Shown piece after piece: positions 11,329 through 59,636 of a stretch of 64,000 nt of DNA; position 1 is the first letter of the stretch, and the number at the start of each line of letters is the position of its first letter. Source of the stretch: an uncultured bacterium. Lineage in GTDB: Bacteria > Edwardsbacteria > AC1 > EtOH8. Below the pieces are notes generated by a model that worked only from the letters and a program-made list of their open reading frames with translations, was not told the DNA's origin and made no database searches. The stretch covers positions 744,001 through 808,000 of the forward strand of contig CALMGM010000005.1 in NCBI GenBank assembly GCA_937863685.1. The letters are read 5' to 3'. Both the position numbers and the translations under genes were made by a program.

Positions 11329-12648
11329 CTATTGCCGCAGACAGCGAACAGTATCGCCTGGCGCGCGGATCAGGTCAAATCCGGATACCGTTCCGGTATT
11401 ATCAACCTTGAACAGCACCTGCCCGCCCACCTCGTCAACCACGAAACATTTTTCCGACAGGGGAAGCAGCTTCCATTTTGGACCTTGCTCGCGTCGGTAG
11501 TAGAGCTGGCCTTCCTCGTGGCTGATGGTCCGGATGCCGTAACTCCCGGCATATCGCCGTTGCAGGTTTTCCGGTACTTTGACGGCAGCAAATTCGGCTT
11601 GTTTAACAGCCATGATGCCGGATAGTTCCTGTATCTCGCCAGGGTCGACGGCAGACTTGAGAAGAGTATCCAGGGCCATTAAATATGCGACATCGAGGGC
11701 GCTGTCGGCCGACACCTTGACGTGCGGCTGGACTCCGGTTCCCTCCCAGTTACTTTTCGATACCGGATTGATAGCCCGCCCGATCGATATCTTAAGTATG
11801 AAAAGGTCGTTAAGAATCTTGAAGTCGACCGGATGAGCGCCGCCGCCGGTGGCCTGGCCTACGATAGTGGCCCGCTTCAATTCCCGCAGGTTGTTGGAGA
11901 ACTCCTCTGCCCCTGAGAAAGTATAATTACTGGTCAGAATGTAGACCGGCACTTTGGCTAAACGCGGTCCTGGCACCCAGGGAAGTATCCAATACTGCTG
12001 GGTAAGGTTGGTGGGCCGATTATACAGGTCGTTCAAGTGGGCCTCGCCTTCGAACAGGTAGGTGCTAATAAGCTGGATCATCTCGGGATGGCCTCCGCCG
12101 TTTCGGCGCAGATCGAAAATGACAGCCTGGGCGTTGGCCAGAAAATTCATGGCCGACACCGCAGCGGCCCCGGCCCCTGGCAGCAATGGGTTATCGAACA
12201 TTCTGAAATCGATGTAGCCGATGTTCCCTGGAAGCAGTTCGACCTTGCGGAATCCGAAATTATCCCGCTGGTGAGCCCTGATGATCTCGGGGAGGCTCTC
12301 TCCATATATGGTGTCGCAACGCATTTGGGCAATCCGTTGCGGACCGTATATTACCGCCAAGTGACGGTCCTTGGTTACCGACCGCAGGTCGTTGGTAAGC
12401 CGGGCGGCGAAATCCTCCGGACTTGATAATCGATCGTAAGCGCCGGACTTTATATTCTTCCGTAGCAATGCCGACATGGCCAGGGCCTTGTCGGGAAAGA
12501 CATAGTTATCTGCCAGCAGTTTGGAAACCGAGTCGACCACCGATTTTCTGAGGCCCTTATCCATAGCTATCTGTGTTGCCGGTTGGGCCGGGGTCAGCGC
12601 CGGGAACATCAAAGCGACCAAAATGGGAAAAAATACTTTTCGTATCAT
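11329..12648 (-). CDS. S41-family (C-terminal processing type) peptidase
   Basis: A periplasmic serine protease of 439 residues with a signal peptide (MIRKVFFPILVALMFPALTPA). The N-terminal helical part resembles the tail-specific protease/IRBP core, and the catalytic segment is VYILTSNYTFSGAEEF followed by GQATGGGAHP, giving the Ser of the Ser-Lys type S41 active site. There is no obvious PDZ domain, as in interphotoreceptor-retinoid-binding-like S41 members. The C-terminal 100 residues form a separate beta-rich domain. AAGGAG sits 8 bases before the ATG. Confidence 0.88.
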   Translation of the reverse strand: MIRKVFFPILVALMFPALTPAQPATQIAMDKGLRKSVVDSVSKLLADNYVFPDKALAMSALLRKNIKSGAYDRLSSPEDFAARLTNDLRSVTKDRHLAVIYGPQRIAQMRCDTIYGESLPEIIRAHQRDNFGFRKVELLPGNIGYIDFRMFDNPLLPGAGAAAVSAMNFLANAQAVIFDLRRNGGGHPEMIQLISTYLFEGEAHLNDLYNRPTNLTQQYWILPWVPGPRLAKVPVYILTSNYTFSGAEEFSNNLRELKRATIVGQATGGGAHPVDFKILNDLFILKISIGRAINPVSKSNWEGTGVQPHVKVSADSALDVAYLMALDTLLKSAVDPGEIQELSGIMAVKQAEFAAVKVPENLQRRYAGSYGIRTISHEEGQLYYRREQGPKWKLLPLSEKCFVVDEVGGQVLFKVDNTGTVSGFDLIRAPGDTVRCLRQ

Positions 12649-52683: not shown

Positions 52684-53811
52684 ATGCCCAGCAAAAAAAC
52701 ACCCCTTGGGAAAAATACTCCGGATCAGGCCGGCGAGAATGCCACCTTGAAGCTGATCGAACGCCTGTCCTCGGCCCCCGGGCCGTCGGGCTACGAGACC
52801 CGGGCCGCCTTCATCGCCGGGGAGGAGTTGGCCCCCTTTGCCACCAAGGTCAAGGTTGACAAGATGGGCAGCGTGGCGGCCTTCAAGAAGGGGCTGTCCC
52901 GGGACGGCAAAAAGATCCTGCTGGCCGCCCATCTGGACGAGATCGGCCTGTTGATCACCGGCATCGAGCCGGGTGGTTTTCTGCGCTTCACCCAGGTGGG
53001 CGGCTTCGACGCCCGGGTGCTGCTGGGACAGGAGGTGCTGCTGCATCCCGTCGGGCGGTACGGACCGGATACCAAGATCGCCCTGCCGGGGATCATCGGG
53101 GCCAAGCCCCCGCATTTCCAGACCCCGGAGGAATCGGGCCAGGTGATCCCCATGGAGGATCTGTATATCGACCTGGGGCTGGACGAGGCGGCTGCAAAAA
53201 CAAAGGTATCGATAGGCGACCTGGCCACCTTGCGGATGCCCCTAATCAATCTCAAGAACGACCGGGCGGCCGGAAAGGCCATGGACAACCGGGCCTGCAT
53301 CGCCATCATGGTCCAGGCTTTGGAGATACTCAGCAAATGCCACCATAGCTGGGATATTTATGCGGTGGCCACCGTTCAGGAGGAGGTCTCCGGCCTGGGG
53401 GCATTGACCTCTACCTTCGACATCCATCCCGATATCGGGATAGCCATCGATGTCACCCACGGCGACACGCCGGGGGTGTCCGACAACGACACCTTCGCCA
53501 TCGGCAAGGGGCCCACCATCACCGTCGGGCCCAACATCCATCCGGCCATTGCCGAAAAATTAAAGACGGTTGCCAAACGAGAGGAGATCCCCTTTCAGAT
53601 AGAGCCCTGCGCCGGCATCACCGGGACCGATGCGGTGGATATCCAGATATCCCAGGAAGGCATTCCCACCGGCCTGTTGGGCCTGCCCCTGCGCTACATG
53701 CACACCCCGGTGGAGACCCTGGCGGCGGTGGACGTGGAGCGCTCGGCCAGATTGCTGGCCCGCTTCATCCAGGATCTGGATGACATCAATCTGGAATGGA
53801 AAGACGACTAA
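52684..53811 (+). CDS. M42-family aminopeptidase (copy 1)
   Basis: A 375-residue TET-type (M42) metallopeptidase, cytoplasmic. The metal and catalytic segments are visible: LAAHLDEIGLLI, MDNRACIAIM, TVQEEVSGLGA and IDVTHGDTPG, with the late THxx-like histidine in RYMHTPVE. An N-terminal extension of about 20 residues (KKTPLGKNTPDQAGENATLK) distinguishes it from the two other copies. AGGAG lies 7 bases before the ATG. The integron-like cassette at 53.88 kb separates it from copy 2. Confidence 0.92.
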   Translation: MPSKKTPLGKNTPDQAGENATLKLIERLSSAPGPSGYETRAAFIAGEELAPFATKVKVDKMGSVAAFKKGLSRDGKKILLAAHLDEIGLLITGIEPGGFLRFTQVGGFDARVLLGQEVLLHPVGRYGPDTKIALPGIIGAKPPHFQTPEESGQVIPMEDLYIDLGLDEAAAKTKVSIGDLATLRMPLINLKNDRAAGKAMDNRACIAIMVQALEILSKCHHSWDIYAVATVQEEVSGLGALTSTFDIHPDIGIAIDVTHGDTPGVSDNDTFAIGKGPTITVGPNIHPAIAEKLKTVAKREEIPFQIEPCAGITGTDAVDIQISQEGIPTGLLGLPLRYMHTPVETLAAVDVERSARLLARFIQDLDDINLEWKDD

Positions 53812-53841
53812 AAGATATTCGGACAAACAATAATGACACAA

Positions 53842-53878
53842 TTGACTAAAATTATAGACAGCATAATTGCAATATAAT
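53842..53878 (+). promoter_or_regulatory. Possible promoter elements upstream of the cassette
   Basis: TATAAT at 53873-53878 lies 5 bases before the cassette boundary and would start transcription inside the cassette, giving a nearly leaderless message for the ORF at 53895. A TTGACT at 53842-53847 is too far (25 bp) for a normal spacer. Confidence 0.35.
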
Positions 53879-53883
53879 ACATG

Positions 53884-54297
53884 TTAGCGCACACATGAAA
53901 GAATCTCAATCTAGTTTCCACTACAGCTGGGAGGACTTACGGCCAATTCGGTCGTTAACAGTTGTCGTCTTGTCAGCTCAAGTGGTAGGCGCGTTGTTAT
54001 CTCTGTGGTTATGGAAATACCCAGACTGGTTCAAAAACCTTTGGGTAGGTGGTGCTACCGCAACCTTCCCTGGTTTTCTAATTGGACTGGTAGTACAAAA
54101 ATCTATTCAACCAAAAAACCTGAGTGAAAACCGAGCTATGGTAATACGTCTTGGTTTAGTAGCGTTGCTTTTATCGCTCATTGCTTTTTTCTTTCCACCT
54201 GTTAATGGCGCACGCTAACAGCCGGATCGTGCGCACGTCGGGAACAATGCGCCATCTTTCCTGATATTTTATTTCCCGGCGCCGCACATCCAGAACG
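53884..54297 (+). mobile_element. Integron-type gene cassette with attC (no integrase seen)
   Basis: About 414 bp from GTTAGCG (53883-53889) to the R' core GTTAG at 54297-54301. One ORF (53895-54218) fills it, starting 11 bases after the boundary and ending with a stop codon inside the R'' core, as in integron cassettes. R'' CGCTAAC (54213-54219) is the exact complement of GTTAGCG at the other boundary, which is what the closed cassette circle requires. There is no integrase gene or second attC in the window, so it fits a lone attC site (SALIN). Confidence 0.75.
53895..54218 (+). CDS. Cassette-borne hypothetical membrane protein
   Basis: 107 residues with three predicted membrane helices (about 20-40, 48-68 and 83-100) and a short polar N-terminus (MKESQSSFHYSWEDL). 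No family recognised. There is no ribosome site between the cassette boundary and the ATG; many integron cassettes lack one. The base composition differs from the M42 genes on either side. Confidence 0.7.
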   Translation: MKESQSSFHYSWEDLRPIRSLTVVVLSAQVVGALLSLWLWKYPDWFKNLWVGGATATFPGFLIGLVVQKSIQPKNLSENRAMVIRLGLVALLLSLIAFFFPPVNGAR

Positions 54298-54303
54298 TTA
54301 GAA
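54213..54303 (+). repeat. attC: attC recombination site
   Basis: An imperfect inverted repeat of about 90 bp. Paired parts: R'' CTAAC (54215-54219) with R' GTTAG (54297-54301); L'' GGATCGTGCG (54224-54233) with L' CGCACATCC (54283-54291), where one C is left unpaired as an extrahelical base; and an inner arm CGTCGGGAA (54236-54244) with TTCCCGGCG (54273-54281). The loop (about 28 nt) is in between. This is the standard attC architecture. Confidence 0.75.
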
Positions 54304-54342
54304 CAAACGAATTACTTATAACACTTTTATACGGAATAAAAA

Positions 54343-55383
54343 ATGATAGACCTTAAACTGATAGAACAATTGACCAACGCCTTCGGGGTCAGCGGATGCG
54401 AAGGAGATATCCGAAATATCGTTCGTAAAAACATCGAAAAGCATGTCGCCGAGATCCGGGTGGACGCCCTGGGAAATCTGATAGCCTATAAAAAAGCCAA
54501 GGGAGCAAAGCCGGGCGCCAAAAAAACAAAAGTGATGCTGGCCGCCCATATGGATGAAGTGGGATTGATGGTAACCTCCATCGATAAATCGGGTTTTCTG
54601 CAGTTCGACAAGGTGGGCGGGGTGGACAACCGGGTGCTGCTGGCCAAAAAGGTGCTGGTGGGCAAGGACAAGATCCCCGGAGTGATCGGCTCCAAGGCTA
54701 TCCATCTTATTGCCCGCAAAGGAGAACATAAAAAAGTCTCTCCTCACAGTGATCTCTCTATCGACATCGGGGCCAGCAGCCAGGAGGACGCCCAGAAGTT
54801 CGTCTCCCCTGGCGATTATGTGATGTTCGACACTAGGTTCGAGGACTGGGGAAGGATCCTCAAGGCCAAGGCCTTCGATGACCGGATCGGCTGCTATCTG
54901 ATGATCGAATTGTTGAAAGATAAATACCCCTTTGATATCTACGCCGCCTTCACCACCCAGGAGGAGGTCGGCCTGCGGGGCGGCCGGGTGGCGGCCTATA
55001 GGGACGAGCCGGATATGGCCTTCATCCTGGAGGGCACCGGGGCCGGGGACATGCCCCAGCCCAAGGAGAGGGACGAAAGCCTGGTGCCGGGACTGGGCCT
55101 GGGGCCGGTGGTCACCATCATGGACCGTTCGGTGTTCTGCGACCAGGGCCTGGTGAAACTGCTGACCGACACCGCCCGGGCCAATCGCATCCCCCATCAG
55201 ATCAAACGGCCCGGAATAGGCGGCACCGACGCCGGACGGATCCACCTGAGCAAGGGCGGAGTTCCATCGGTGGTGCTGGCCATCCCCTCGCGCTACATCC
55301 ATTCGCCGGTATGCCTGTCCAGCAAAAAGGACATCGAGAACGGCCTGCGGCTGATGAGGCTGGCCCTGAAGAAAATAAAATAA
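54343..55383 (+). CDS. M42-family aminopeptidase (copy 2)
   Basis: A 346-residue M42 peptidase with AAHMDEVGLMV, FDDRIGCYLMI, TTQEEVGLRGG and FILEGTGAGD, plus the histidine in RYIHSPV. The LLTDTARANRIPHQIKRPGIGGTDAG segment is typical of the family. The ribosome site is weak (GGAA). It starts 40 bases after the cassette end, so any shared transcript with copy 1 passes through the cassette. Confidence 0.92.
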   Translation: MIDLKLIEQLTNAFGVSGCEGDIRNIVRKNIEKHVAEIRVDALGNLIAYKKAKGAKPGAKKTKVMLAAHMDEVGLMVTSIDKSGFLQFDKVGGVDNRVLLAKKVLVGKDKIPGVIGSKAIHLIARKGEHKKVSPHSDLSIDIGASSQEDAQKFVSPGDYVMFDTRFEDWGRILKAKAFDDRIGCYLMIELLKDKYPFDIYAAFTTQEEVGLRGGRVAAYRDEPDMAFILEGTGAGDMPQPKERDESLVPGLGLGPVVTIMDRSVFCDQGLVKLLTDTARANRIPHQIKRPGIGGTDAGRIHLSKGGVPSVVLAIPSRYIHSPVCLSSKKDIENGLRLMRLALKKIK

Positions 55384-58295: not shown

Positions 58296-59636
58296 ATGAA
58301 CCAACAAATACAGGCACTATGGGCCCAGTCACAGGACAAGATCAAGGAAAGGATAGGCTCCCAGAGTTTTGACACCTGGATAAAGCCGCTGACCGCCCTG
58401 ACGGTGGGCGAGGACAGCCTGACCCTCAAAGTCCCCAACCATTTTTTTGTGGAGTGGCTGGGGCAACATTATCTTAATGTGATGAAAGAAGTGGTCTCCG
58501 ACATCTTTCATAAGCCGCTGTCGATAGTGCTGGTCCCCCCGGTCGGCGAAGCCCTGGCCGCCGCCCGCCAGAAACCAGAGCGAAGCGAATTTGTTCCCGC
58601 CCAGCTGACCAGCGATAGCGGTCTGAGAGAGAGATATATATTCGACACTTTCGTCATCGGTAAAAGCAACGAATTTGCCTATGCCACCGCTTTCGCTACC
58701 GCCCAGGATCCGGGAAAACAGTATAACCCGCTGTTCATCTACGGCGGGGTGGGACTAGGCAAGACCCACTTGATGCAGGCCATCGGACACTTCATCAAGC
58801 GCCGGAAGCCCAAAGCCAAGGTGTTATATATCCCGGCCGAAAATCTGATGAATGAGATGATCCACGCCATCCAGAACCGCAAGATGCTGGAATTCAAGAA
58901 TCGCTATCGTTCACTGGACATTCTGCTGCTGGATGACGTTCAGTTTCTGTCAGAAAAATCCGGCATTCAGGAAGAGATATTCCACACCTTCAATTCGCTG
59001 TACGATTCACGCAAGCAGATTGTTTTAACCTCCGACAGGCCGCCCAAGGATATCTCCCACCTGGAGGAACGTTTGGTATCCCGCTTCCAAAGTGGACTGG
59101 TAGCCGACATCCAAACCCCTGATCTGGAGACCCGGGCGGCCATTCTTAAAAAGAAGGCCGAACTGGACGGCCTGTCCATCCCCAACGATGTCATCTATTT
59201 CATCGCCGATTCAGTGAAATCAAACATCCGGGAGCTGGAGGGTTCTCTTATCCGGGTGGTAGCCTTCTCCTCGGTTTCGGACAAGGAATTAACGGTGGAT
59301 TTTGCCCGGGAGGTCCTGAAGAACATCATCTCTCAGAAAGCCAAGGTGGTCTCCATTGAGCTTATTCAGAAAACTGTGGCTAATTACTATTCCATTCCCG
59401 AGGAAGCCCTTAAATCCAAAAAGCGCATCAAAAAACTGGTGCTACCCAGACAACTGGCCATGTACCTAAGCCGGGAGTTGACCACAGCCTCGCTCAACGA
59501 TATTGGCAACCGCTTTGGCGGCAAAGATCACAGTACGGTGTTGCACGCCGTTTCCAAGATCAGAGAGCTGATAGCTTCCGGTGGGGAAATCGTTCCCCAG
59601 GCGGAGAGGATAACCGAGTTGATCAACGGTGGATAA
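58296..59636 (+). CDS. dnaA: Chromosomal replication initiator DnaA
   Basis: The 446-residue AAA+ initiator with all four regions. Domain I (about 1-85; LWAQSQDKIKERIGSQSFDTWIKPL), a short domain II, the AAA+ domain with Walker A GGVGLGKTH at 150-158, Walker B DILLLDDVQFL near 208-218 and sensor/box VII region SRFQSGLVADIQTPDLETR, and domain IV with the DnaA-box-binding signature DHSTVLHAVSKI. Full length. There is no strong Shine-Dalgarno sequence. Confidence 0.98.
   Translation: MNQQIQALWAQSQDKIKERIGSQSFDTWIKPLTALTVGEDSLTLKVPNHFFVEWLGQHYLNVMKEVVSDIFHKPLSIVLVPPVGEALAAARQKPERSEFVPAQLTSDSGLRERYIFDTFVIGKSNEFAYATAFATAQDPGKQYNPLFIYGGVGLGKTHLMQAIGHFIKRRKPKAKVLYIPAENLMNEMIHAIQNRKMLEFKNRYRSLDILLLDDVQFLSEKSGIQEEIFHTFNSLYDSRKQIVLTSDRPPKDISHLEERLVSRFQSGLVADIQTPDLETRAAILKKKAELDGLSIPNDVIYFIADSVKSNIRELEGSLIRVVAFSSVSDKELTVDFAREVLKNIISQKAKVVSIELIQKTVANYYSIPEEALKSKKRIKKLVLPRQLAMYLSRELTTASLNDIGNRFGGKDHSTVLHAVSKIRELIASGGEIVPQAERITELINGG

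Follow-up and report, generated by a model that had tools for sequence, protein, structure and literature searches.

Two adjacent M42 peptidase genes in a genome of Candidatus Edwardsbacteria are separated by a short stretch of DNA that a first-pass annotation read as an integron-style gene cassette with its own attC, with no integrase in view. Is this stretch a gene cassette, and if so, how did it come to lie between two peptidase genes in a genome with no detectable integron integrase? The window analyzed here is 64,000 nucleotides from a genome assembly (G000) of 2.72 Mb, which is 97.9% complete and in 14 contigs.

Both neighbors encode M42 family aminopeptidases on the forward strand: copy 1 upstream (52684–53811; Pfam PF05343, E 4.3e-79) and copy 2 downstream (54343–55383; PF05343, E 6.6e-88). 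Between them, the segment 53884–54297 (+ strand) is an integrated integron gene cassette of 414 bp, consisting of a 107-codon ORF and an attC; its limits are taken from the sequence and from the alignment with a relative described below. The 5’ boundary is GTTAGCG (53883–53889, + strand), with the crossover between 53883 (G) and 53884 (T). The attC (54213–54303, + strand), located by covariance models and by its fold, runs from R’’ (CGCTAAC, 54213–54219) through L’’ with its extrahelical base, a central stem, and L’ to R’ (GTTAGAA, 54297–54303). The L arms are GGAT(c)GTGCG and CGCAC ATCC, with one extrahelical base, and there is a second inner stem – the unpaired spacers, the R’’/R’ and L’’/L’ boxes, and the extrahelical base are all present. 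The R’ of the window departs from the consensus RYYYAAC/GTTRRRY, which counts against the explanation favored below.

All of the elements that the first-pass annotation had named (GTTAGCG, the ORF, R’’, the L arms and R’) were found where it had placed them. The ORF starts 11 nt after the G^T cut and stops within R’’ (the TAA in CGCTAAC), as it had also claimed, and the perfect 7-bp complementarity that it saw between R’’ and the 5’ boundary is in the sequence: CGCTAAC complements GTTAGCG at 7 of 7 bases, which gives a paired R box in the excised circle. When the cassette’s own R’ is restored, as in the circle form, the folding energy goes from −15.5 to −19.2 kcal/mol, with the R box paired 7/7.

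The locus might instead be no cassette at all but a hairpin formed by chance next to an ordinary ORF, acquired or orphan, and two of the results are in keeping with this. The fold energy of the attC is unremarkable (z −1.1 for the bottom strand, −1.9 for the top strand), which counts against the favored explanation, and a simple scan for R and L boxes gives such scores by chance about twice per 64 kb (14 in six Markov shuffles of the window), though when the exact 5’ boundary was required as well, the window kept this site alone and the six shuffles had none. Fold energy was rejected as evidence for an attC, its z-scores being ordinary, as was the R/L-box finder used alone, which has too many chance matches at this score. 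Since neither was decisive, a covariance model (R1) was built from unrelated integrons – 14 attC sites from six unrelated genomes, next to integron integrases, with no Edwardsbacteria site in the training set. In this set, 95.6% of cells were paired, and the covariation score was 0.705, against 0.20 in shuffles.

Model R1 matched 54213–54303 over its full length with 21.7 bits (E 1.2e-4 in 10 kb, filters off); the runner-up had 8.7 bits. A second model (R2), trained on more sites that included the Edwardsbacteria attC of relatives but not the window site, gave 24.0 bits (E 0.0012 in 64 kb, filters off) and a runner-up of 10.8 bits. The covariance search that had been proposed as a check of this locus was thus positive with both models and well above background, and together with the PF05343 neighbors it supports a cassette with attC between two M42 peptidase genes. 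The site is weak beside good ones, as the attC of relatives score 28–50 bits. An Rfam scan of the region returned nothing relevant, its three matches all being far under their gathering scores. Covariance scores so far over background at exactly the predicted ends, the exact match of R’’ to the 5’ boundary, the flank breakpoints common to a relative, and attC at the same locus in other genomes all speak against a chance hairpin, which is very improbable.

The breakpoints come from the same M42 spacer in G001, a genome of the same genus. Here the left flank is the same up to the cut that follows ATATAATACATG, and the aligned right flank is nearly identical from TTAGAAC through ACGAATTA. The content of the G001 spacer differs from that of the window, with two short ORFs, or two different cassette-like units, and an attC of its own (31.5 bits). 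The conserved flanks common to the two genomes end exactly at both predicted cut points, so that window genome and G001 differ by a discrete insertion, with flanks continuous to both cuts and different DNA between them. The right flank of the window (54298–54342, + strand), which starts with TTAGAAC, is kept in G001 and partly in G009 (88% match), where a cassette with an attC of 50.9 bits lies directly before M42 copy 2.

The M42 spacer of G002 holds an insert starting AAACAGTTAGGC with no recognizable attC. Those of G004, G006 and G007 are short and without insert, but they are unrelated to the flanks in the window, and because of this lack of homology they are not true empty sites. A true empty site, ATATAATACATGTTAGAAC, was seen in none of the relatives compared, which counts against the favored explanation. 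The comparison of close relatives that had been suggested thus gave flanks kept up to the cuts with other DNA between, in G001, but not the empty site itself. In two further genomes, a diverged repeat of the final ~35 bp of M42 copy 1 occurs in the M42 spacer, ahead of an M16-type peptidase gene (about 1050–1092 of locus L051 in G003, and about 985–1020 of locus L052 in G008), as if the inserted DNA had carried a gene end along. G003 also has two copies of a MITE-like element of ~150–190 bp with inverted ends (GAGACCTCTGC.. and ..GCAGAGGTCTC), one adjoining intI (L152, 12130–12275) and the other in the M42 spacer (L051, 336–535).

The ORF of the cassette (53895–54218, + strand) encodes a hydrophobic product of 107 aa, probably a small membrane protein. 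The cassette has a GC content of 46%, compared to 57–62% in the two M42 genes, and a GC3 of 0.39, compared to 0.74–0.81, which suggests a foreign origin. A homologue of the ORF is found on the plasmid RPME01 of Methylibium petroleiphilum, with 56% identity over 101 aa. The cassette ORF is therefore not an orphan, and because the plasmid homologue begins at the same methionine, the reading of the ORF as a real protein of foreign origin is supported. No attC was found around the Methylibium homologue, and a cassette array at that place was rejected. A search for the ORF in relatives, covering about 385 genomes, gave nothing apart from one marginal match (E 8e-4), and no homologues were found in viral contigs. 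The Pfam family ATP-synt_I scored under its curated cut-off and was not adopted; no other Pfam family passed a cut-off, and NCBIfam had no match. At the cassette junction there is a TATAAT, but a proper −35 was not found on this strand and no good promoter was recognized; the ORF probably either depends on an outside promoter or is silent.

No protein of the window genome scored over the TIGR02249 cut-off for integron integrases (265 bits). The best match, of 87.7 bits, is probably XerC/D; hits of this strength occur across relatives. There is no intI beside the cassette, and the locus is not a complete integron. Model R2, with filters off, found one attC in the 64-kb window, which is fewer than the two or more clustered sites of a CALIN; one attC with no intI nearby makes the locus a SALIN, with ~0.79 Mb scanned elsewhere in the genome by a search insensitive to sites this weak. 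At this genome-wide setting, R1 missed even the 31.5-bit attC of G001, and both models missed the attC of the window. The absence of further attC is therefore established only for strong sites in the scanned part of the genome, and the genome-wide search that the first-pass annotation had proposed found no intI over the cut-off but settled the question of more attC only to that extent.

An intact integrase might be in the cell all the same, on missing DNA or on a plasmid, and the cassette might still be mobile. An assembly that is 97.9% complete and in 14 contigs could have a small gap, and the gene is intact in a congener. However, the best TIGR02249 match is comparable to hits found throughout the relatives and consistent with XerC/D, and the clpB locus, which has an integron in G003 and a remnant in G002, has none in the window genome, so that an integrase hidden in this way is improbable. 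Neither an integron nor a remnant was seen at that clpB locus, which was rejected as the site of a lost platform.

Within the scope of the search, the statement that there is no integrase is true of the window genome; it is not true of the relatives. G003, a congener, has a complete integron adjoining clpB, with an IntI of 326 aa (462 bits; cut-off 265), a Pc promoter (TTGACA-17-TATAAT), an attI (...CCCAATACATG^TTAGGC), and two attC of 30.5 and 28.5 bits. A second Pc-attI in this genome (contig G003:C52) lies downstream of a TPR gene, with no intI in the interval. The clpB locus of G002 has no intI but still carries Pc-attI together with an attC scoring 30.1 bits. In G009, the intI on one contig is frameshifted, an attI accompanied by an intI remnant adjoins sucC (G009:C13), and there are nine attC in all.

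Several other features were seen in these genomes. Partial copies of the 3’ end of clpB are found past intI and again 6 kb further on (L152, about 12300–12420; G003:C70:20097–20690), so that the G003 integron is flanked by clpB tails. A second tyrosine recombinase of G003, a 434-aa frame at a contig end (L155, G003:C41, 241–1041), has matches of 139 and 101 bits to the integron integrase model, under the cut-off. In G009, a HicA/HicB-like gene pair lies between two attC (G009:C9; L325, 6146–6763), a typical toxin-antitoxin cassette.

The left boundary of the cassette resembles the attI of these relatives. An attI-like left half-site ending AATACATG^TT (53841–53885, + strand), either a decayed attI or an attI-like attG, was recognized by a weight matrix, a composition test, and a weak BLAST match, and its boundary 12-mer, AATACATGTTAG, also occurs in the attI of G003. 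With a weight matrix made from four attI of relatives, 21,484 GTT sites in ~0.85 Mb of the window genome were scored; the window boundary ranked first, with 25.0 bits compared to 15.0 for the next site (at length 30), and was also first at every other length tried. The likeness in the 27 nt before the GTT had p < 2.5e-6 relative to random sequence of the same AT-rich local composition, and p 8e-4 when the 7 nt nearest the core were left out. BLAST with the G003 Pc-attI gave a weak match at the window boundary, in register (E 0.77); a gapped, bias-corrected profile search for attI (nhmmer) did not report the boundary at E 10. Two points count against the favored explanation – the similarity extends over ~30–45 nt and does not include a Pc, and the orthologous flank in G001 is attI-like in its last 10 nt only (p 0.02). 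No remnant of Pc or intI was found in the 72-bp left spacer of the window.

This boundary might also have arisen by insertion off the platform, with IntI using an ordinary attG, a GTT site with no history as an attI, in which case the likeness would reflect the binding preference of IntI only. Cassettes are known to enter attG sites (Loot et al. 2024, cited in PMC12901181 and PMC12444791), and both the lack of Pc and intI remnants in the left spacer and the fact that the flanks of G001 and G003 have in common only the end of the attI-like stretch would fit it. On the other hand, the likeness reaches upstream of the 7 nt nearest the core, attI modules without an adjoining intI are known elsewhere in the family, and several genomes of the family have cassettes in the same spacer, in contrast to the many loci hit by attG insertions in E. 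coli experiments (PMC12444791). An ordinary attG insertion is thus possible rather than probable. The target may be either a decayed attI or an attG selected for its attI likeness, with the decayed attI slightly favored.

Taken with the family’s integrons, the locus is very probably a cassette inserted by IntI on an attI-like target between the M42 genes, by the IntI of the lineage’s own chromosomal integron, and now stranded. An IntI-type integrase would have recombined the folded attC of the cassette with the double-stranded target between the M42 genes. That target would most likely have been a decayed attI platform without intI and cassette promoter, or otherwise an attG resembling the attI of the lineage. 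The integrase would have been the IntI of the Edwardsbacteria chromosomal integron, presumably an ortholog of the one still intact in G003, and the window genome would have lost its intI rather than never having had one. Because this genome is without a detectable integrase, the cassette would now be stranded unless an IntI arrives in trans, and it is probably immobile at present. The integrase is present in close relatives, which also have matching docking sites and, at the corresponding position, cassettes of other content, so that the locus can be read as the leftover of a once-working gene-capture system.

A more far-reaching and rather unlikely possibility is that a Pc-attI module has dispersed in Edwardsbacteria, with attI at clpB, sucC, the TPR gene and the M42 spacer all taking cassettes from one integrase in trans. 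If so, a single integron would be a multi-site, genome-wide cassette expression system, and the window would hold one of its docking sites after the loss of the integrase.

Both attC elements that lack an integrase and insertions away from the platform have been described before (PMC9024848, PMC12444791, PMC12901181), and single-attC elements can be true positives according to the description of IntegronFinder 2.0 (PMC9024848). A SALIN, the IntegronFinder term for a one-site CALIN, has one attC and one cassette ORF with no intI nearby, as the window does. The lone attC (SALIN) mentioned in the first-pass annotation is correct to this extent, but it undersells the locus – the boundary is attI-like, relatives have an integron, and cassettes lie in the same M42 spacer in G001 and G009. 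Unlike a merely detached attC, the window cassette may sit on a relic platform, given a left boundary that resembles the attI of the lineage. The attG insertions of Loot et al. 2024, cited in PMC12901181 and PMC12444791, likewise place cassettes in chromosomal DNA away from intI, but the attG sites reported there are scattered and divergent from classical att, while the orthologous spacer considered here is occupied in several species and is attI-like. The sedentary chromosomal integrons of Xanthomonas, with their progressive loss of intI (PMC12444791), are similar in having a platform beside a core gene (ilvD there, clpB in Edwardsbacteria), an integrase that is lost or broken in some members, and attC elements at other loci. 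The integrons of Edwardsbacteria differ in belonging to another phylum, in having one or two cassettes per site, and in having attI copies at several loci.

The Edwardsbacteria lineage and the recurrent attI-like docking site between the M42 genes appear to be new; a literature search returned no paper naming integrons together with Edwardsbacteria, which is not proof that none exists. Candidatus Edwardsbacteria would be added to the lineages with integrons, and because one complete and several decaying integrons are found in one family, it can be traced there in what order integrases are lost, platforms decay and cassettes become stranded. The attI-like boundary makes a further question testable – whether stranded cassettes lie mostly at random attG or on relics of attI. 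A single weak attC, of a kind usually lost at default thresholds, can be established through the comparison of relatives. Outside this family, G010 (59% complete; loci L235 and L237–L255) has 20 attC matches over many contigs. Within the window itself, a DnaA-like ORF (replication initiator) lies at 58296–59636, 4 kb downstream of the cassette, which places the cassette near the presumed replication origin.
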